Positions 2,320 through 11,729 of a stretch of 64,000 nucleotides of DNA are shown here, one piece after another. Position numbers and translations under genes: made by a program. This stretch comes from Enorma massiliensis phI (GTDB taxonomy: Bacteria > Actinomycetota > Coriobacteriia > Coriobacteriales > Coriobacteriaceae): assembly GCF_000311845.1 (NCBI RefSeq), contig NZ_HE978574.1:1269248-1333247 (forward strand), written 5' to 3'. The number at the start of each line of letters is the position of its first letter. Position 1 is the first letter of the stretch. Below the pieces are notes generated by a model. That model saw only the letters and a list, made by a program, of their open reading frames with translations, ran no database searches and had not been told where the DNA came from.

Positions 2320-2883
2320 CTAGACGCGGGAAACGAACTTGCCGTCGCGCGTGTCGACCTTGATCATCTCGCCCTCGTTGAGGTACATGGGCACCTGGAC
2401 AACTGCACCGGTCTCGATGGTGGCAGGCTTGGTGGAACCCTGAACGGTGTCGCCCTTGAAGCCCGGATCGGTCTGGGTGATCTGGACCTCGATGAACATC
2501 GGCGGGTTCACGCCCATAAGATCATCGTCGGCGTAGAGAAGCTGGCAGACGTCGTTCTCCTTGAGCCACTTAGCGTTGTCGCCGATGAAGTCCTCGGGCA
2601 CGGGAACCTGCTCATAGGTCTCGTTGTCCATGAAGATGAAGTCGTTGCCGTCGTTGTAGAGGTACTGCATCTCACGGGTGGAGAGCATGACGCTTTCGAA
2701 CTTGGTGCCGGCGTTGCAGGTGTTCTCGACCACGCGGCCGGTCTTGATGTCCTTGGTCTTATAGCGCACGAACGCGCCGCCCTTGCCCGGCTTGACATGC
2801 TGGAACTCGACGATGGTCACGACCTTGTCCTTGATGCGCAATCCGATGCCGTTCTTGAAATCGGCGGTGGTGATGGTTGCCAT
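2320..2883 (-). CDS. efp: Translation elongation factor P
   Basis: 187 aa, full family length. Three beta-barrel domains: KOW-like domain I with the tip loop HVKPGKGGA carrying Lys34, then OB domains II and III ending VDTRDGKFVSRV. EF-P enters the ribosomal E site and relieves stalling at polyproline. Lys34 is the residue modified in many bacteria; no modification gene is seen nearby. SD AAAGG precedes the ATG. It has its own likely promoter (2948-2953) and leads the efp-asp23-nusB-xseB-tlyA-nadK run. Confidence 0.97.
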   Translation of the reverse strand: MATITTADFKNGIGLRIKDKVVTIVEFQHVKPGKGGAFVRYKTKDIKTGRVVENTCNAGTKFESVMLSTREMQYLYNDGNDFIFMDNETYEQVPVPEDFIGDNAKWLKENDVCQLLYADDDLMGVNPPMFIEVQITQTDPGFKGDTVQGSTKPATIETGAVVQVPMYLNEGEMIKVDTRDGKFVSRV

Positions 2884-3090: not shown

Positions 3091-4221
3091 CTAGCAGTCG
3101 ATGACCTGAAGGTCATGCGGGCTCTGGGTGAAGGGGACGAAGCCCTGGGCGGTCACGAGACCGCAGTCCTCAAGGCGAACGCCGAACTCACCGGGCAGAT
3201 ACACGCCCGGCTCGATCGTGACGACGGAGCCCTCCCCCACCGTATTGTGCGTGCGCCCAAAATTGGGGAGCTCATGGATGTCGATGCCCACGCCGTGGCC
3301 AAGGCCGTGGCCGTAGTACTCGCCGTAACCGGCATCGCCGATAATCTTCCGCGAAAGCTCATGGATCTCGTTACCGTCCACGCCGGCATAGACCGCCTTA
3401 GCGCACTCCTCATGCGTGCGCTGCACGAGGTCGTAAATCTCGCGCATCTTCGCCGAGGGCTCGCCCACGGCAACCGTGCGGGTCATGTCGGAATCGTAGT
3501 CGTGGTAGCGCGCGCCGTAATCCATGAGAACGAACTCGCCCTTCTGCACAGGGCGATCGCTCGGGATGGCGTGCGGGTTCGCCGCATTAGGGCCTGCAGC
3601 GACGATAGAGCCGAACGCAAGGCCGTCGGCTCCGTTTTCGAACATGAAGTTCTCGAGCTCGAGCTTTATCTGCTTCTCGGTGAGACCGGGACGAATAAAC
3701 TCAAGCATGTGCGCAAACGCGGCGTCGGTGATTGCCTGGGCCCGCTTCATGAGGGCGATCTCCTCTTCGTCCTTCACCGCGCGCATGAGGCGAAGGTCCC
3801 CATGCATCTGCGGAAGCAGGGCACCGATGGAAAGATCCCCGAGTCCACGGACCAAACCGTCATAGAACGAGAGCTCCATGGTGTCCTCAACGGCAACGAC
3901 GCGACACTTGGCATCGCGAGCACGCTCGGCAGCCCAACGCGGAATACCGATGACCTCCATATCGAGGACCCAAGGGCTATCTGCCGGAAGATGCTCGATG
4001 AAGCTGTTGTAGTAGCGAGAATCGGTGTGCAGGAACGTATTCGACGCGGTGATGAACGCAGCGTGCGGCAACTCGCCCGTATAGTCGAACACGCCTTCGG
4101 CGCCGGTCAACCAGCGAAGATTCGCCTCATCGCGAATAATGACGGCATCGTAGCCGCGCTCGTCCATGAGCTCGCGAACACGCTCGATGCGACCGAGCGG
4201 GCCAGAAGCATGTGAGGACAT
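3091..4221 (-). CDS. pepP: M24-family Xaa-Pro aminopeptidase
   Basis: 376 aa. An N-terminal creatinase-like domain (about 1-140) precedes a pita-bread M24 peptidase domain. The metal-binding residues can be followed: Asp in LMDYGARYHDYDSDMTRT, His in YYGHGLGHGVGIDIHE, Glu in TIEPGVYLPG and Glu in VRLEDCGLV. It releases N-terminal residues preceding proline in the cytosol. It sits directly upstream of efp, a very common pairing, but the 207-base gap with a hairpin and promoter suggests separate transcription. SD GAAGGGG precedes the ATG. Confidence 0.93.
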   Translation of the reverse strand: MSSHASGPLGRIERVRELMDERGYDAVIIRDEANLRWLTGAEGVFDYTGELPHAAFITASNTFLHTDSRYYNSFIEHLPADSPWVLDMEVIGIPRWAAERARDAKCRVVAVEDTMELSFYDGLVRGLGDLSIGALLPQMHGDLRLMRAVKDEEEIALMKRAQAITDAAFAHMLEFIRPGLTEKQIKLELENFMFENGADGLAFGSIVAAGPNAANPHAIPSDRPVQKGEFVLMDYGARYHDYDSDMTRTVAVGEPSAKMREIYDLVQRTHEECAKAVYAGVDGNEIHELSRKIIGDAGYGEYYGHGLGHGVGIDIHELPNFGRTHNTVGEGSVVTIEPGVYLPGEFGVRLEDCGLVTAQGFVPFTQSPHDLQVIDC

Positions 4222-4246: not shown

Positions 4247-4332
4247 TGACTCACAGACACCGGGTGTCTGTGAGTCATTTCCGGGTGTCTGTGAGTCATT
4301 TGAATCGCCAACACCGGGTGTCTGTGAGTCAT
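4247..4332. repeat. Palindromic repeat cluster, GACTCACAGACAC family
   Basis: Between aroB and pepP. A perfect inverted repeat of 14+3+14 (TGACTCACAGACAC / GTGTCTGTGAGTCA, 4247-4277) overlaps two exact tandem copies of a 21-bp unit (4260-4280 and 4281-4301, starting CCGGGTGTCTGTGAGTCA). A third copy at 4314-4332 is preceded by a different half-site, GAATCGCCAACAC. A related element is at 24491-24519. No coding function. Confidence 0.9.
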
Positions 4333-4408: not shown

Positions 4409-5509
4409 CTATGCCACGAGCTCCGCACGCGAAGCAACATAGGCACGCGCATGGCGCACGAGCACATCGTCGGGAACGGCCGTTAGCCGAATGGTGCCCA
4501 CCGATTTGGGAAGCGGGAGGAGGAAACGGTTAGACCGGCGCGCATGCTCCTCCTTGAGGGCGCGCACGAAGCCCTCGGCATCGAGCGAGAATCCATATTC
4601 CTCGATGCCGAGGTCTTCAAACAGATCATCCTGATCAAAGACGATATCGGCATCGAGGCCAGCCGCCTCCACAGCAAGACGGGCTTCGAAGCGCATGCCC
4701 TCTGACAAAAGCGCCCAACCAGGGGCTTCGGGCCCCAGACAACGTGCGAGCGCACGAGCCGTCGCGCGTCCATAGGACAGCGCATGCCGGGCAGAGGGGT
4801 TTGCGGCCTTAACGACGTTGCGACGCGCCTGCTGCACCGGTCCAAAGACCTCACTGAATGCAACGGGCTCATCGGCAGCGATGAGAGGAGCGCTCTCGAC
4901 CAGCTGCTCCCAGACGCGCTTCCCCTCTGCAAGGGCGGCGCCGAGCATAAGAGCCCTGCCCTCGAGACGTGCTTCGAGCGGCATGTCGGCGATAAGATCG
5001 AAGTCGCAAACGACCATAGTAGGCATCGGCCTGAGCGACACCATATCAGGAGCCTCTGGAGTAGCAAGCGGATGCATCTCGGTGGGCAGCGTGACCATCG
5101 CGTCGAGGGTGGTGGGAATCAGGGTGCACGGAACGCCCCCGCACCAAAGCTGCGCGGCGAGAAGCGCCGAAGAGCAAAGTTTCGCATCGCCGAGAGCGAG
5201 CATGAGGTCGTCGGCGGTAAGAGCGGCACGAGCGCATCCAGCGAGCACCTCGGTAGCGCTCGAGAGCGTGGCAGGATCCGTCTCGCGAGGGAACACGCAT
5301 TCCTCCGTCGAGAAACCGGCGTCGATAAGTGCCCTGCGCACCGCATCGCCGTAAGCCGTATATGCATCGTCAGTTGAAACGAGTAGGGCGCGCTTAGGCA
5401 TGCCGACCGCTCCCGACACGATGCGAGGAAGCTCCTCGAGCGCACCGGATCCCGAACGGACATCGATGCTCTTCTGACTGATGTTGAGGAGTTGACGCTT
5501 GATCGTCAC
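4409..5509 (-). CDS. Degenerate 3-dehydroquinate synthase (AroB) homologue
   Basis: 366 aa, family length. The overall AroB layout is recognisable (N-terminal Rossmann-like half, VPCTLIPTTL segment, DADIVFDQDDLFEDLGI, C-terminal SVGTIRL), but the catalytic signatures are gone. The NAD-binding GGGVxGD is GDAKLCS (107-113). The PTTLLAQxDxxxGGK region reads PTTLDAMVTLPTE (132-144), with no lysine. The zinc-histidine motifs LNFGHTxGH and LHGE read LSYGRATAR (244-252) and LLSEGM (267-272). It is therefore unlikely to make dehydroquinate. The frame is intact and the GTG start overlaps the aroK stop, so it is maintained and coupled to aroK. Confidence 0.8.
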   Translation of the reverse strand: MTIKRQLLNISQKSIDVRSGSGALEELPRIVSGAVGMPKRALLVSTDDAYTAYGDAVRRALIDAGFSTEECVFPRETDPATLSSATEVLAGCARAALTADDLMLALGDAKLCSSALLAAQLWCGGVPCTLIPTTLDAMVTLPTEMHPLATPEAPDMVSLRPMPTMVVCDFDLIADMPLEARLEGRALMLGAALAEGKRVWEQLVESAPLIAADEPVAFSEVFGPVQQARRNVVKAANPSARHALSYGRATARALARCLGPEAPGWALLSEGMRFEARLAVEAAGLDADIVFDQDDLFEDLGIEEYGFSLDAEGFVRALKEEHARRSNRFLLPLPKSVGTIRLTAVPDDVLVRHARAYVASRAELVA

Positions 5510-6060
5510 AGCAAACCACGCTCCAAAAGCATATCGGCACAGATATAGGACACGTCTTCGAATGAGCGGCCGCGAATATCCACCGTCAAATCCGCCGCCG
5601 AACGGTATAGCGGGCGACGATGCTGGTAGAGGCGATGCGCGTGCTCGCGCGAACGGAAATCGGGACGACTCGCAAGCGAGCGAATCTGCCGAAGCGAATC
5701 ATCGAATTCACCGTCTAGGTATACGCACACGCCCATCTCGTGCATAAGCTCGATGTTACGCGGTGTCTCCACGATACCGCCCCCGCACGAGACCAAGAGG
5801 CTGCGTTCGCTCGCAAGCGATTCAAGCGCCTTGGTTTCAAGCTCTCGAAACGAAGCTTCACCCTCGTTGCGGAAAAGGTACGAGATCGAATGCCCCGCCC
5901 TGCGCTCAACGAGACGATCGGTATCGAGATAGCGGCGCTTGAACATTCGGCCGAGGTTCCTTGCGAGCGTTGACTTGCCCGCACCCAGAAAACCAATGAA
6001 GAAGATATGGTCGCACCCGTGCTTCGAAGCAAGGACGCGACCGCCTTCGGATCCCCCCAT
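5506..6060 (-). CDS. aroK: Shikimate kinase
   Basis: 184 aa. P-loop kinase with Walker A GFLGAGKST (23-31), shikimate-binding DTD (46-48), FRELE with the conserved Arg72, the SCGGGIV loop (91-97) and a RRPLY lid-end motif. Converts shikimate to shikimate-3-phosphate. In contrast to the neighbouring aroB-like gene all motifs are intact. SD AGGAG precedes the ATG; 6 bases separate it from the upstream yqeG-like gene. The first about 17 residues lie before the usual start of the family. Confidence 0.9.
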   Translation of the reverse strand: MGGSEGGRVLASKHGCDHIFFIGFLGAGKSTLARNLGRMFKRRYLDTDRLVERRAGHSISYLFRNEGEASFRELETKALESLASERSLLVSCGGGIVETPRNIELMHEMGVCVYLDGEFDDSLRQIRSLASRPDFRSREHAHRLYQHRRPLYRSAADLTVDIRGRSFEDVSYICADMLLERGLL

Positions 6061-6066
6061 GCGCCG

Positions 6067-6564
6067 TTACTCCTCGCACGTAAGGTTGCGAAGCGCGCGC
6101 CGCTCGAAGATGCGGAAGATCTGCGTATACCAGAGGTCGGCTGTTGCCTGCGGCTTCACGAGAATCGTATCGATGCCGGCAAGGTTACCTGCCCACACAT
6201 CCGTATAGAGCTGGTCTCCCACCATGACTGCCTCATCCTTCGAGACGCCGGTTCGTTTGAGCCCGGCATTGAGCGCGAAGGGAGCGGGCTTCATGGCGTG
6301 GCTTATCGCCTCGAGACCGAGCTCGCCCGCCGAGCGCATAACTTGGTCTCTATGCCAGTTATTCGAAACCATGCAGAGCCTAAACCCCAAGGCCTTCGCT
6401 CGATCGAGCCACGCGGCTACCTCGTCTGGTGCGGTCGCGCGATCGCGCGGCACGAGTGTGTTATCACGGTCAAGCAAGATAGCGCGCTTGCCCTGAGCGA
6501 AAAGCTCTTCAAGGTCGATACGGTCGACAGATGCTACATAACGCGTGGGTGAAAAGAGGCTCAT
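6067..6564 (-). CDS. YqeG-family HAD phosphatase
   Basis: 165 aa. HAD superfamily class IIIA: motif I DRDNTLVPRD, motif II VSNNWH, and C-terminal VGDQLYTDVWAGN. This matches the YqeG/YqeG-like family, some members of which act as phosphatidylglycerophosphate phosphatases; the substrate here is not determined by the sequence. In Firmicutes yqeG neighbours aroE, and here it neighbours aroK. Its ATG overlaps the mltG stop (ATGA, 6561-6564). Confidence 0.87.
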   Translation of the reverse strand: MSLFSPTRYVASVDRIDLEELFAQGKRAILLDRDNTLVPRDRATAPDEVAAWLDRAKALGFRLCMVSNNWHRDQVMRSAGELGLEAISHAMKPAPFALNAGLKRTGVSKDEAVMVGDQLYTDVWAGNLAGIDTILVKPQATADLWYTQIFRIFERRALRNLTCEE

Positions 6565-7844
6565 GATTGGGAATCCCGATACTCCTGCACGTTCGCTTGG
6601 AACTCGTCGTAGGTTTCACTGAACTTGTGCGAACCATCGCCCGCACTCGAAAGCACATAATACAGGTAATTGGTGTCATCGGGGTTGAGAGCGGCCTGAA
6701 TGGACGAAACACTCGGAGAGCAAATGGGCCCGGGCGTGAGGCCGGTGTTCTGGTAGACGTTGTACGGCGAATCAATCTCGAGGTCATCATAGGTTACCAT
6801 GCCGGACCCGCCACCGCGCGCATAGACGATCGCGGCATCGATCTGGAGCGGCATGCCCTCGTCGAGGCGGTTATAAATGACGCTCGCGATGGTCGAGCGC
6901 TCGCTTTCCACCGAGCTCTCGCGCTCGATGAGCGAAGCCATAGTCACGATCTGCTGCGCCGTGAGCCCATTGGCACCATCGGTCAGGTTGAGGCCTGCGG
7001 TCTCCGTCTCGAATTGATCGAGCATCGCGCGAATAACCTCGTCTGCCGTGGGATCATCCTGGAACGAATAGGTCTTGGGATAGAGATAGCCCTCGAGCGA
7101 ATCGTTATAAGCGCCTTCGAGGAAGGGATAATCCGAAACATAGTTCGAAGCCTTCGCCTGAGCGAGGAAGTCGTCGGCAGAGATGCCATACGTCTCCTGC
7201 ACGCGCTCGGCGGTCTGTTGGACCGTAAGGCCCTCGGGAATCGTCAACGTCACGCCCTCGACGTTCGGGCCATCGATAAGCTGCTGCACCACTTCTTCTG
7301 GGTCTTGCAGCGTGGTGAAGAGGTAGTCACCGGGCTTTAGCAGAGCATCGGCCTGCATGCTGCTGACCGTGGCGTAATACTCCTTGGGATCCTCGATGAT
7401 ATGGTTCTGCGAAAGAATGGAGGCGATCTGGTCGCCAGAAGCGCCCTGGGGAATGTTGATCTGGACCTCGATGCCAGCCTCGACCGCCGGTTCGTTCGAG
7501 CCGGAAATGAGCCGGCCAACAGCCGGAACGACGAACAGAACGATCGCGGCAATAAGCGCTACTGCAACAGCGCAGACGATAATGATGGGAACGATGGGCT
7601 TACGGCGAGCTTGAGTGGTCGAGCGGCGCTGGTAAGCAGGCTGGACGCCATGGCGGCCCTGCGGGCGACCATGCGCCGGGGCGGGCATGCGCCTCGCAGG
7701 TGCGCCTACGGTACGCGAAGGAGCTGCCTGAGGAGCGGTCCTGAACCTCGTACCCTGCGGACGGCCCTGCCCCGCAGCGGAAACGTTGCGGGCATGTGCC
7801 CGGCGAGCGGAGCGATGCGCCCCATCATCCCTAAGTTCTGCCAC
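6561..7844 (-). CDS. mltG: Endolytic murein transglycosylase MltG
   Basis: 427 aa from a GTG at 7844, chosen because GGAGG (7853-7857) lies 8 bases upstream; in-frame ATG 7865 and TTG 7916 have no SD. A cytoplasmic Arg/Pro/Gln-rich N-terminus of about 80 residues is followed by one membrane span (PIVPIIIVCAVAVALIAAIV), a LysM-like/YceG N domain and the YceG catalytic domain with the active-site region SLIERESSVESERSTIASV. It cleaves nascent glycan strands outside the membrane. It is the first gene of the mltG-yqeG-aroK-aroB-like run. Confidence 0.9.
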   Translation of the reverse strand: MAELRDDGAHRSARRAHARNVSAAGQGRPQGTRFRTAPQAAPSRTVGAPARRMPAPAHGRPQGRHGVQPAYQRRSTTQARRKPIVPIIIVCAVAVALIAAIVLFVVPAVGRLISGSNEPAVEAGIEVQINIPQGASGDQIASILSQNHIIEDPKEYYATVSSMQADALLKPGDYLFTTLQDPEEVVQQLIDGPNVEGVTLTIPEGLTVQQTAERVQETYGISADDFLAQAKASNYVSDYPFLEGAYNDSLEGYLYPKTYSFQDDPTADEVIRAMLDQFETETAGLNLTDGANGLTAQQIVTMASLIERESSVESERSTIASVIYNRLDEGMPLQIDAAIVYARGGGSGMVTYDDLEIDSPYNVYQNTGLTPGPICSPSVSSIQAALNPDDTNYLYYVLSSAGDGSHKFSETYDEFQANVQEYRDSQS

Positions 7845-7913
7845 GGCATCGTCCTCCGGAATCATATCGAGGGGTAAAACTGTCGATCCCCGATAGTGTA
7901 CCGCAGGAGCGCC

Positions 7914-7949
7914 CAAACCTTAAAGTTTTCATCGAACCTTGAAGGTTTG
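7914..7949 (-). terminator. Stem-loop after the PTS operon
   Basis: An interrupted stem (CAAACCTT, mismatch, AAG / CTT, mismatch, AAGGTTTG) lies just beyond the DUF956 stop at 7961. No U-run follows, so it could instead be an operator for mltG. A possible mltG -10 (TACACT) follows it. Confidence 0.35.
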
Positions 7950-8453: not shown

Positions 8454-9398
8454 TTAGAGCAGGCCGATATAATGACCAGCGATACCGACAATGAACATGC
8501 CGACGATGATGGCGATCGGGGAAACCTTCTTCTTAAGCAGCCAGCAGCACAGAAGCGTCACGCCCACGGCGGCGAGGCCGGGGATGAGCGAATCGAGATT
8601 CGCCTGAAGGGTCGTGACCTTATTGACCTCGAGGCCCGTGGCGCCGAGCGACGAGTACTGGGAAAGTGCGCTATGAATAGCGTCTGCCACACCCTGGCCA
8701 CCATTGCTCGCGGTATCAGCAATGGCATTCCAGTCAATGTAGGCACCCTCAGACTGCGTGACCGTGGAAACGGTCGGAGCAAACGAGATGGAGACCCAGC
8801 GCTCAACGAGCGAGCCGATCACGAACATACCGAGAATCGAGGCGCCCTCGGTGATCTTGCCCATGAGGCCGCCGGAAAGGTCCTTCGTGATGGAGGTGCC
8901 CAGCTGGTAGCCGAACTCCTGCGTGTACCACTCGAACGCAAGACGAATCACGTTCCAGGCAACGAAGAAGAGAAGCGGGCCCATGATGTTGCCGCTCATA
9001 GCGAGCGAGGCGCCCAGGGCACCGAGAATCGGGCGAAGGGTGAACCAGAAGACGGGGTCGCCAACACCGGCGAGCGGGCCCATCATACCGACCTTCACGC
9101 CCTGGATGGCGGCGTCCTCGACGGGGGTGCCGTTGGCACGGTCCTCCTCAAGAGCGAGGGTTACGCCGATAACGGGCGAAGAAACGTACGGATGGGTGTT
9201 GTAGAACTCCATGTGACGCTTGAGCGCCGCAATCTGGTCATCCTTGTTGGGGTAGAGCTTCTTGATGGCCGGAACCATCGAGAAGCACCAGCCGCCGTTC
9301 TGCATACGCTCGTAGTTCCAGGAGCCCTGCAGGTACTGATGACGGAACCAAACCTTGAGACGATCGCTCTTGGAAAGGGTGATCTTGTTCTCTGCCAT
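8454..9398 (-). CDS. manN: Mannose-family PTS component IID
   Basis: 314 aa. EIID family: soluble N-terminal part with the conserved SWNYERMQNGGWCFSMVPA, GDPVFWFTLRPI and GPLLFF segments, and hydrophobic C-terminal helices ending in AIIVGMFIVGIAGHYIGLL. With EIIC it forms the membrane channel that moves and lets EIIB phosphorylate the sugar. Strong SD GGGAGGAG. It follows manM by 18 bases. The substrate is probably mannose, glucose or another hexose; sequence cannot separate these. Confidence 0.93.
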   Translation of the reverse strand: MAENKITLSKSDRLKVWFRHQYLQGSWNYERMQNGGWCFSMVPAIKKLYPNKDDQIAALKRHMEFYNTHPYVSSPVIGVTLALEEDRANGTPVEDAAIQGVKVGMMGPLAGVGDPVFWFTLRPILGALGASLAMSGNIMGPLLFFVAWNVIRLAFEWYTQEFGYQLGTSITKDLSGGLMGKITEGASILGMFVIGSLVERWVSISFAPTVSTVTQSEGAYIDWNAIADTASNGGQGVADAIHSALSQYSSLGATGLEVNKVTTLQANLDSLIPGLAAVGVTLLCCWLLKKKVSPIAIIVGMFIVGIAGHYIGLL

Positions 9399-9416
9399 AG
9401 TCTCTCTCCTCCCTTC

Positions 9417-10232
9417 CTACTCGTAGTCGTCCAGGATGTCGCCGAGCGGGTCGCCCGAGCCGCCACCCATGCCGCCGCCCTGCTTGGCAAGCTCCTTGAG
9501 GCCCAGATAAATGAGGGCAAGGGAGATGCCGATGACACCAAGGGCGATAAGGGTGAGCTCGGAGATGGCAGCAAGGCAGAAGCCGAGCGCGAAGAACGGC
9601 CAGACCTCCTTGGTCGCCATCATGTTGATGACCATGGCGTAACCAACGGCAGCAACCATGCCGCCGCCGATGGCCATGCCATCGGAGAGCCAGGCGGGCA
9701 TCATGTTCAGGGCGCCCATGACGGCGTCGGACGGGATGAAGCAGAGGGCAGCTGCCGGAATGGCGATACGGATGCCCTGCATGCAGATCGCGACGATCGA
9801 CCAGAAGTCGATGGCGGCGAAGTTGCCCTTAGCGGCAGCGCCGTCCATGATGTGGACCACCGGAATGGCGAGCGTACGCACGATCATGGTAAGGAAGAGG
9901 CCAGCCACGGACAGCGGCACGGCCACGGCGATGGCCGTGGAGATAGCGGTGCTCTGGTCGGCGCCGTTACCAACGGCGATGACCATGAGAATTGCCGATG
10001 CGACCGACGCGAGTGCGGCGTCGGGGGCGACGGCAGCACCAACGTTAGCCCAGCCAAGGGCCATCATCTGGAGCGTACCGCCCAGGATGATGCCAGCCTC
10101 AAGCTGACCGCTCACCAAGCCGATGAGCGTGCATGCGACCAGCGGCTGGTGGAACTGCCACTGGTCCAGAACGCCTTCCATGCCGGCAAGGAAGGCAACG
10201 ATGACAATCAGGATGATTGTGAATGCCGACAT
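9417..10232 (-). CDS. manM: Mannose-family PTS component IIC
   Basis: 271 aa integral membrane protein of the PTS_EIIC mannose/sorbose superfamily, with family features FLAGMEGVLDQWQFHQPLVAC at the N-terminus (only segments quoted), LGGTLQMMALGW and NVGAAVAPDAALASVAS. The tail is a Gly/Met-rich, acidic segment after the last helix, which is longer than minimal family members. It contains the sugar-binding pore with EIID. SD AAGGAGGG; 13 bases from manL. Confidence 0.93.
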   Translation of the reverse strand: MSAFTIILIVIVAFLAGMEGVLDQWQFHQPLVACTLIGLVSGQLEAGIILGGTLQMMALGWANVGAAVAPDAALASVASAILMVIAVGNGADQSTAISTAIAVAVPLSVAGLFLTMIVRTLAIPVVHIMDGAAAKGNFAAIDFWSIVAICMQGIRIAIPAAALCFIPSDAVMGALNMMPAWLSDGMAIGGGMVAAVGYAMVINMMATKEVWPFFALGFCLAAISELTLIALGVIGISLALIYLGLKELAKQGGGMGGGSGDPLGDILDDYE

Positions 10233-10245
10233 GTTTCCCTCCTTC

Positions 10246-11238
10246 TTACGCTTGCGCGGCCAGCTCGGACTTGGCCTTCTTCATCATGGAGTCGAAGTTC
10301 TCCGGGGAGTCCGCGGGAACCTTGCGCACGTCGAACTCGACGCCCTTGGCCGCGAGGGTCTCGAGGCACTCCACATCGGCCTGATCCATAGCGATCGCGT
10401 TGGTGACGACGACCTTGCCCACAGAGTGAGCCATAGAACCGAGGTTCACCTTCTTGATGTCCACGCCACCCTCGATGCACTTGAGCAGATCCTGCGGCGT
10501 CTCGAAGAGGAGCATCGCCTTGGTCGCACCGAAACGGGGATCCTTGGCGACGTCAATCATCTTCTGGATGGGGACGACGTGAGCCTTGACTCCCGGAGGG
10601 GCCGCCTGCTGGATCATGGTCTTGCGCAGCTCGTCATGAGAGACGGCGTCGGAAACCACGATGATGCGGTCGGGACCGGTCTGCTTGGTCCAAGTGGTTG
10701 CCACCTGGCCGTGAAGCAGGCGGGTGTCCACGCGGCAGAGCACGAACTTGATGTGGCCATCGCCCAGAACCGTTCCCTCGGGGATGGAGCCCGTCGGGTG
10801 GGCCGGAGCAGCCTCAACGGCCTTCGGGGCCTCGGGCTCGAGGCTCTCGGGCTTCACGCGCACGCCATCACGGGACTCCTGGATGAGCCCAGTCGCAATC
10901 TCGTGTGCCGTGGCCTCGGGGTTCATGCGCAGCGTGTACGCCGTGATGACCATGGGGAGGTTCATACCCGTGACGGCAGCCCACGTGGGATGCCCGTCGA
11001 GCAAACCGTTGATCTGGTTGAACGGCGTGCCGCCCCACAGGTCGACGAGGAAGAGCACCTGCTCCTGATCGGAAAGCGTTGCCACCTCCTTCTCGATCTC
11101 CGCCCTAAGGTCATCCGGACCCATGCTAGGTTGCAAGCTGACGGAAACCACGTCCGGCTGGTCGCCGAAGACCATGGACGCCGTCTGCTTGATGCCCTGC
11201 GCGAGGTCGCCATGACTTGCGAGGACAATTCCTACCAT
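10246..11238 (-). CDS. manL: Mannose-family PTS component IIAB
   Basis: 330 aa fused EIIA-EIIB. EIIA (about 1-125) carries the phosphoacceptor His9 in ASHGDLAQG and the LWGGTPFN motif. A Pro/Glu/Ala-rich linker (about 128-158) leads to EIIB with the phosphoacceptor His176 in CRVDTRLLHGQV. It relays phosphate from HPr to the incoming sugar. It is the first gene of manLMN-manO. SD AAGGAGGT is very strong, fitting high expression. No dedicated regulator gene (ManR type) is next to it. Confidence 0.94.
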   Translation of the reverse strand: MVGIVLASHGDLAQGIKQTASMVFGDQPDVVSVSLQPSMGPDDLRAEIEKEVATLSDQEQVLFLVDLWGGTPFNQINGLLDGHPTWAAVTGMNLPMVITAYTLRMNPEATAHEIATGLIQESRDGVRVKPESLEPEAPKAVEAAPAHPTGSIPEGTVLGDGHIKFVLCRVDTRLLHGQVATTWTKQTGPDRIIVVSDAVSHDELRKTMIQQAAPPGVKAHVVPIQKMIDVAKDPRFGATKAMLLFETPQDLLKCIEGGVDIKKVNLGSMAHSVGKVVVTNAIAMDQADVECLETLAAKGVEFDVRKVPADSPENFDSMMKKAKSELAAQA

Positions 11239-11472: not shown

Positions 11473-11729
11473 TGGGCGCATTCCGGACGGCCCGGGCCTC
11501 TCAGGCGTCTTCTGGACGCTGCCACTGTCTTCGGGCGACATTCGGACAACCGCGGGCTTCTCGGGCGACATTCGGACAACCGCGGGCTTCTCGGGCGACT
11601 TTTGGACACTAAGCAGTCGAAAAACGTACCAAAGTCGCCCGAAAACGAAATGAGTGTCCAATTATCGCCCGAGAACGAGGATGCGCGCTGATTGTGCCAG
11701 AACACAGAGAGAACGTCCGAATGTCGCCC
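11473..11729. repeat. Repeat cluster, GGGCGACATTCGGACA family
   Basis: Between ruvX and the PTS operon. Two exact tandem copies of a 30-bp unit (11531-11560 and 11561-11590) that begins TCGGGCGACATTCGGACAAC, plus a partial third (11591-11608) and two diverged copies at 11473 and 11503. Three copies lie in the opposite orientation (11633-11641 partial, 11654-11672, 11714-11729). 11593-11640 can fold into a 12-bp stem. The open frame through it repeats PEKPAVVRMS only because of the tandem units. Confidence 0.88.

Follow-up and report, generated by a model that had tools for sequence, protein, structure and literature searches.

An AroB homologue of Coriobacteriaceae and Atopobiaceae with a predicted 3-dehydroquinate synthase fold and without the catalytic residues

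Proteins of the shikimate pathway have been put to other uses more than once. The fungal repressors QutR, GaaX and TanX derive from AROM domains (excerpts of PMC10512348). They resemble the protein described here, which we call pseudo-AroB, in that shikimate-pathway proteins became presumably inactive, ligand-recognising regulators encoded beside a partner. However, the QutR-type proteins, as those excerpts describe them, are fungal and multidomain, with shikimate kinase, dehydratase and dehydrogenase domains and no DHQ synthase, whereas pseudo-AroB is a single DHQ synthase fold of 366 residues in which no other Pfam domain was found, and it has neither a DNA-binding domain nor fused AROM domains of the QutA/QutR type. 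The shikimate kinase fold, once duplicated or fused, has taken on a role outside the shikimate pathway in plant SKL1 and SKL2 (PMC2593004) and in BzdR (PMC3602430), as the extracts of these papers report, and AroK of Escherichia coli has a second activity, connected with mecillinam sensitivity (Vinella et al. 1996, as cited in the extract of PMC2593004). On these extracts, SKL1, SKL2 and BzdR are parallels for AroK*, the kinase encoded beside pseudo-AroB, and not for AroB, and AroK* retains its catalytic and P-loop residues; in the E. coli case a protein of the shikimate pathway has a further role in the cell, but it is an active enzyme of another organism and not an AroB. None of the QutR-type, BzdR and SKL precedents is a DHQ synthase alone, and we take QutA to resemble the DHQS-EPSPS half of AROM. 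A search of the open-licence PubMed Central literature yielded no description of a DHQ synthase pseudoenzyme in bacteria, and the pseudoenzyme paper found in that search concerns, in the part available, TrpC-TrpF and not DHQ synthase.

The nearest enzyme is 3-dehydroquinate synthase itself (AroB; TIGR01357, PF01761/PF24621). Pseudo-AroB is like it in whole-length fold, in length and in its ancestral place beside aroK, but it has lost the NAD loop, the metal ligands and the catalytic lysines, and it scores far below the family cut-offs (18.8 bits against 24.2 for PF01761 in Pfam and 56.5 bits against 305 for TIGR01357 in NCBIfam). DHQ synthases are weak phmmer matches among PDB sequences (best E 2e-5). 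An AlphaFold model built with 47 relatives has a pLDDT of 96.4 and a pTM of 0.93, and its top PDB rows in VIA-align are again DHQ synthases, the best being 5eks (Z 41.4, rmsd 2.4, 352 residues, 16% identity). The model thus predicts the two-domain DHQ synthase fold, kept without the residues for its chemistry. Judged by NAD loop, metal ligands, substrate residues and family score, the protein would not be assigned to AroB. The coordinates within the window, by which we mean the whole stretch of 64,000 nucleotides of Enorma massiliensis phI that was analyzed, are collected in Table 1.

Table 1. Positions in the window of pseudo-AroB, its altered sites and its neighbours.
Feature	Coordinates	Strand	Remarks and basis
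Pseudo-AroB	4409..5509	(-)	366 aa, GTG start; DHQ synthase fold without NAD, metal and lysine residues
GTGA overlap, AroK* stop and pseudo-AroB start	5506..5509	(-)	4 nt
Former NAD-binding GGGxxGD loop, now GDAKLCS, residues 107-113	5171..5191	(-)	alignment; coordinates computed from residue numbers
Zinc ligand Glu194 position, now Leu187	4949..4951	(-)	alignment
Zinc ligand His271 position, now Arg248	4766..4768	(-)	alignment
Zinc ligand His287 position, now Gly264	4718..4720	(-)	alignment
Conserved C-terminal helix EGMRFEARL, residues 270-278	4676..4702	(-)	best kept segment of the family
AroK*, shikimate kinase paralogue, LID RPLL to RPDF, translationally coupled to pseudo-AroB	5506..6060	(-)	Pfam/NCBIfam, alignment
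yqeG-type HAD phosphatase, upstream neighbour in conserved cluster	6067..6564	(-)	Pfam; synteny
mltG-like gene, conserved cluster	6561..7916	(-)	synteny; name presumed
pepP (M24 aminopeptidase), downstream neighbour in conserved cluster	3091..4221	(-)	Pfam; synteny
efp (elongation factor P), conserved cluster	2320..2883	(-)	Pfam; synteny

The same genome (2.28 Mb, 99.9% complete) encodes a canonical AroB at C1:1260529-1261530, which scores 350 bits and lies about 13 kb from pseudo-AroB, just outside the window; the idea that pseudo-AroB is the sole AroB of the genome is thereby ruled out. The canonical aroB, aroC, aroE and aroA genes, which the earlier note proposed to look for, are all found in an aro operon that runs through DAHP synthase, TyrA, AroB, AroA, AroC, chorismate mutase-prephenate dehydratase (PheA) and an AroE-shikimate kinase fusion. 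Since this operon is complete and has its own shikimate kinase, the aroK*/pseudo-aroB pair in the window is probably unneeded for the pathway, and catalysis could be lost in pseudo-AroB because a canonical aroB with a full aro operon is present.

The residue losses were read from a 120-row alignment of 54 Coriobacteriaceae and 33 Atopobiaceae pseudo-AroBs, the copies in genomes G043 and G041, eight active AroBs at the native, aroK-linked place and 23 operon AroBs; identical sequences were counted once, and L065 (cut off at a contig end) and L127 and L119 (broken or fused) were left out. The residue numbers of the Aspergillus nidulans enzyme, and the ligand and catalytic roles of these sites, are those that we take to apply. 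The NAD loop GGGxxGD is G107-D-A-K-L-C-S113 in pseudo-AroB, D146 and K152 are T140 and H146, K197 is G190 and K356 is A323, and the zinc ligands E194, H271 and H287 are L187, R248 and G264, so that none of the three is kept. From what we assume to be the substrate residue set (K152, K161, N162, K197, K250, R264, N268, H275 and K356) only R264 survives, as R241, and one other position stays basic, K250 being changed to R229. These results, with the AlphaFold model and the structural match, bear out the observation that started this work, namely that an AroB homologue had kept its fold while its NAD loop and its zinc and lysine sites were gone. Both zinc histidines are indeed replaced, but the LLSEGM segment named for one of them sits a few residues past the H287 position, and the original residue list missed the loss of E194, the retention of R264 and the change of K250. 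AroB ligands conserved at shifted positions were not found in the 120-row alignment; the structural alignment gives ranges only and no residue-by-residue view.

All 31 functional-looking AroBs (23 operon-type and eight native) are intact at the NAD loop, at all three metal ligands and at ten other catalytic positions. In the 87 pseudo rows the ten further sites are kept 0 to 3 times, the four GGG and D residues are never all present (compared with 31 of 31 active rows), and the zinc ligands are kept as none in 78 rows, one in seven, two in two and all three in none. Cofactor residues are lost, to differing degrees, in every one of the 87; a loss of catalytic residues that is common to the whole lineage is beyond chance.

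The replacements display a pattern of their own. The position of D119 is Ser (S113) in 82 of the 87 rows, that of K250 is Arg (R229) in 84, R264 is retained in 85, the His275 position is Arg (R252) in 70, a former Tyr is W122 in all 87, and N327 is present in 83. Because the changes to S113, R229, R252 and W122, with R264 retained, are not random, a basic, metal-free pocket is possible. This pattern of newly fixed residues, several of them at old active-site positions, would also be expected if pseudo-AroB were a new enzyme whose old pocket had been rebuilt for chemistry without NAD or metal. However, G043 and G091 have not retained the pocket residues, conservation is lower in the N-terminal domain than in the other half, and no invariant cluster with a catalytic look was identified, and so we consider a new enzyme rather unlikely; the pocket arginines are also not all kept in G043, G065, G067 and G091. 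The suggestion in the earlier note that the protein might use another sugar phosphate is disfavoured if it is meant as a cyclase. The synthases of 2-deoxy-scyllo-inosose (DOIS), 2-epi-5-epi-valiolone (EEVS) and desmethyl-4-deoxygadusol (DDGS) have the same fold as pseudo-AroB (2gru, Z 36.5; 4p53, Z 33.6; 5tpr, Z 32.8), but they bind NAD and a metal in those structures, and pseudo-AroB has lost the same positions. It is this dependence on NAD and a metal, common to the known sugar phosphate cyclases, that speaks against a cyclase role. Simple binding of an anionic ligand may occur.

Pseudo-AroB is widespread in both families. In a search of 60 relatives, all 37 Coriobacteriaceae genomes (E of 3.3e-80 or below) and all three Atopobiaceae genomes had a pseudo copy. 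When 101 Atopobiaceae genomes were searched with a profile, 96 gave a match over the full length that scored 269 bits or more; 33 of the Atopobiaceae sequences were read and the remaining copies were judged by profile score only. The five exceptions are a frameshifted copy (G064), an interrupted one (G083), two divergent ones (G067 and G091) and G104, which has the operon AroB only and lacks both pseudo-aroB and aroK*. A scan of the genome contigs with the single protein as the query gave no match and one with the alignment gave 62 loci, of which those with titles belong to Coriobacteriaceae (Collinsella, Enorma and others), Atopobiaceae and one Coriobacteriia MAG; the assignment of the genomes to the two families rests in part on hits to these titled loci.

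An active-looking AroB occupies the same gene place in other Coriobacteriales (f2, f4, f7, f9 and f10), and the order yqgF-mltG-yqeG-(A24 peptidase)-aroK-aroB-pepP-efp-asp23-nusB-xseB-tlyA is shared, with gaps and losses, by 28 loci with pseudo and active native copies; the name mltG in the window is the one we take to be right. In a tree with no outside root, the Coriobacteriaceae, Atopobiaceae and G043 pseudo rows form one clade (99/98) and the operon AroBs form another (100/100); the copy of G043, a draft, is very divergent and is on a long branch. Pseudo-AroB is the old aroK-linked AroB of the Coriobacteriales, vertically inherited and still situated between aroK and pepP. Some genomes resemble intermediates. 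G051 (85% complete, with contamination possible) has a native and an operon AroB, each above the cut-off, and G041 has an operon AroB and a native copy that has kept the NAD loop but lost E194, K197, R264, N268 and H271. This native gene (L058 7292-8395) has no aroK beside it and is apparently a separate case of half-way decay.

The surroundings of the gene show several local peculiarities. In the window, three genes that by eye resemble those for mannose-type PTS IID, IIC and IIAB (8454-11238) lie between mltG and yqgF, unlike most of the relatives compared, where yqgF is immediately before mltG; between the PTS-like genes and yqgF a 30-nt unit occurs three times in tandem, with an incomplete last copy (11531-11608). 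In the gap between pseudo-AroB and pepP (4247-4331), CACCGGGTGTCTGTGAGTCA or a close variant of it appears three times in direct orientation, once within an inverted repeat, and CACCGGGTGTCTGTGAGTCA with up to 3 mismatches occurs five times in the window against 0 expected. A promoter scan gave 0 sites compared with 3.9 in shuffles. Elsewhere, a MAG (L119 10001-12205) has pseudo-AroB and PepP in one 734-aa reading frame, possibly by deletion or an assembly fault, and on a Collinsella vaginalis scaffold (L127 7415-15042) pseudo-AroB is split, mltG and yqeG are duplicated and undetermined bases lie inside, an arrangement that is probably a misassembly or a rearrangement.

The gene is under purifying selection. 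The median dN/dS, from 14 of the 62 loci, all of one Collinsella group, is 0.10 for pseudo-AroB (90 pairs), 0.03 for AroK*, 0.02 for PepP and 0.10 for MltG. Sixteen alignment columns are invariant across 47 relatives, down to 22% identity. One could still suppose that the gene is a relic in decay that survives only because the operon around it is tight; it does sit among tightly packed, partly overlapping genes, and it is lost or broken in G104, G083 and G064. Against this, its dN/dS equals that of mltG, and the invariant columns and the presence in every Coriobacteriaceae genome and at full length in nearly all Atopobiaceae would be very hard to explain, so that a relic is the least probable of the explanations considered here. 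A pseudogene is ruled out by the dN/dS of 0.10 and the conservation across the two families. With its fold kept, its catalytic residues gone and purifying selection acting on it, pseudo-AroB appears from its sequence to be what the earlier note took it for, a pseudoenzyme, that is, an enzyme homologue without catalytic residues that is kept by selection.

Where the selection acts has changed. The ratio of mean identity in residues 226-366 to that in residues 1-175 is 1.29 in Coriobacteriaceae pseudo-AroBs and 1.26 in those of Atopobiaceae, whereas native AroBs have 0.98 and operon AroBs 0.82. The higher ratio implies a shift of constraint away from the cofactor domain and towards the C-terminal domain. 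Five residues there (E270, R273, F274, D294 and H353) are common to the pseudo rows and to seven or eight of the eight native AroBs and occur in only 0 to 3 of the 23 operon AroBs; E270 and R273 are retained in G007, G043, G065, G067 and G091. The five common residues may serve the structure, as core or dimer contacts, instead of forming a docking face.

The protein is INDEPENDENCE from the pathway in G007 and G043, which lack DAHP synthase, AroE, canonical AroB, AroA and AroC, yet the pair is present. G007 is one contig and 99% complete and G043 is 94% complete; the only AroA match in G007 (77 bits) is of a type seen in nearly every genome, presumably MurA. Each has a single shikimate kinase, beside pseudo-AroB, and in G043 (L068 3059-3601) the GGG motif of this kinase is replaced by GDG. 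The same searches were positive for DAHP synthase and AroE in the window's genome, G040, G041, G048 and G056. G049 and G057 have lost both the pathway and the aroK*/pseudo-aroB pair, and hence the pair is not always kept. These genomes also bear on the idea that pseudo-AroB is a non-catalytic prozyme that forms heterodimers with the operon AroB. AroB is normally a dimer and both kinds of AroB are present in most genomes, but pseudo-AroB is kept in G007 and G043 without any operon AroB, and we consider this idea quite improbable.

Pseudo-AroB is likewise INDEPENDENCE from AroK* in six Atopobiaceae genomes of two genera (G077, G093, G103, G117, G129 and G145), which keep it without AroK* and have a single shikimate kinase, encoded in the operon close to aroC. 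At those of these loci that were read, the gene before pseudo-AroB encodes an A24 prepilin peptidase and not a kinase; it lies between yqeG and pseudo-AroB at L123 9442-9948 and L126 9393-9866, replacing aroK* in two genera, and a gene similar by eye is upstream of aroK* in L124 and L054. No kinase was detected in a seventh genome, G138 (88% complete), and neither a kinase nor aroC in G091 (94%), G065 (86%) and G067 (57% complete), where pseudo-AroB is kept between yqeG and pepP; because the last three are drafts, their missing genes may be assembly gaps. Pseudo-AroB outlives both the shikimate pathway and its AroK* neighbour, and therefore its present role needs neither. This role is something other than shikimate synthesis, nor is it limited to regulation of the AroK next to it.

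AroK* itself is a well-kept kinase with one conspicuous change. All 80 rows, three fragments having been left out of the kinase alignment, keep the P-loop Lys, D32, D34, R58, E61, GGG and R117, and to this extent the description of aroK as intact was accurate, the P-loop and shikimate-binding residues being kept. It does not extend to the LID, where all 80 AroK* sequences have Asp in place of the hydrophobic residue L119; six of six native kinases have Leu there, and 23 of 24 operon kinases have a gap. In the shikimate kinase of Mycobacterium tuberculosis this residue lines the shikimate pocket, according to the available part of PMC7144000. AroK* also carries an extra Arg right after the conserved Arg (R136) of the RxPLY motif, the conserved Arg being read by eye. 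An Asp at pocket residue 119 would imply that AroK* may have a substrate other than shikimate.

The two genes overlap by 4 nt in 79 of the 80 loci with a partner (ATGA in 55, GTGA in 24, different in one), and with the purifying selection this is in line with the expectation that pseudo-AroB expression is maintained. The same overlap, the strong constraint on AroK*, its lineage-specific D119 and additional Arg, and the fact that the pair stays together in pathway-less G007 and G043 would fit a dedicated regulator or obligate subunit of the kinase. The six Atopobiaceae genomes with only an operon kinase, and G091 and G065, which keep pseudo-AroB with no kinase found, are difficult to reconcile with this, and we judge such a dedicated role to be unlikely. 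For the same reasons, the six genomes having no adjacent kinase and G091 and G065 no detectable shikimate kinase or aroC, regulation of AroK, as the earlier note had put it, fails as a general function.

We therefore prefer, with a probability of roughly 0.6, to see pseudo-AroB as a vertically inherited pseudoenzyme with a retained non-catalytic role, a second role that the native AroB would already have had. A second, intact-looking AroB is present in a complete aro operon with an AroE-AroK fusion, and the old copy stayed in its place, lost its NAD, metal and substrate residues and is kept under purifying selection. The native AroB would already have had a second, non-catalytic role in its C-terminal helical domain (E270, R273, F274, D294 and H353), and only that role would have been kept after catalysis was lost. 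Today pseudo-AroB would dock a partner through its C-terminal face, an anion may bind in the remodelled pocket (R229, R241, R252, S113 and W122), and AroK*, where present, would be its coupled, ATP-dependent partner. Such a scaffold or ligand-sensing pseudoenzyme, with C-terminal docking, a possible anion pocket and AroK* as partner, is the mechanism that we infer to be most likely, although at slightly less than even odds. It is more tentative still to propose that an AroB-derived non-catalytic protein, coupled to a LID-altered kinase, has been a sensor or scaffold unrelated to aromatic synthesis through the history of both families, in a role that predates the loss of catalysis. The losses in G104, G083 (interrupted) and G064 (frameshifted) count against the preferred reading; pseudo-AroB can be lost.

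These results have some practical meaning. Going by fold or neighbourhood, one might take pseudo-AroB for a second AroB, an error that would mislead pathway reconstructions in Collinsella and its relatives. The genomes also represent a natural series from enzyme to pseudoenzyme, with one active native copy, two active copies, a partly decayed copy, a fully decayed copy and a copy kept after the loss of the pathway. The order-specific C-terminal residues make the question of whether AroB moonlights directly testable in species in which AroB is still active. In conclusion, gut bacteria of the Collinsella family and of its sister family keep an AroB without catalytic residues, some of them after losing the whole pathway, and this protein probably does a different job from shikimate synthesis.
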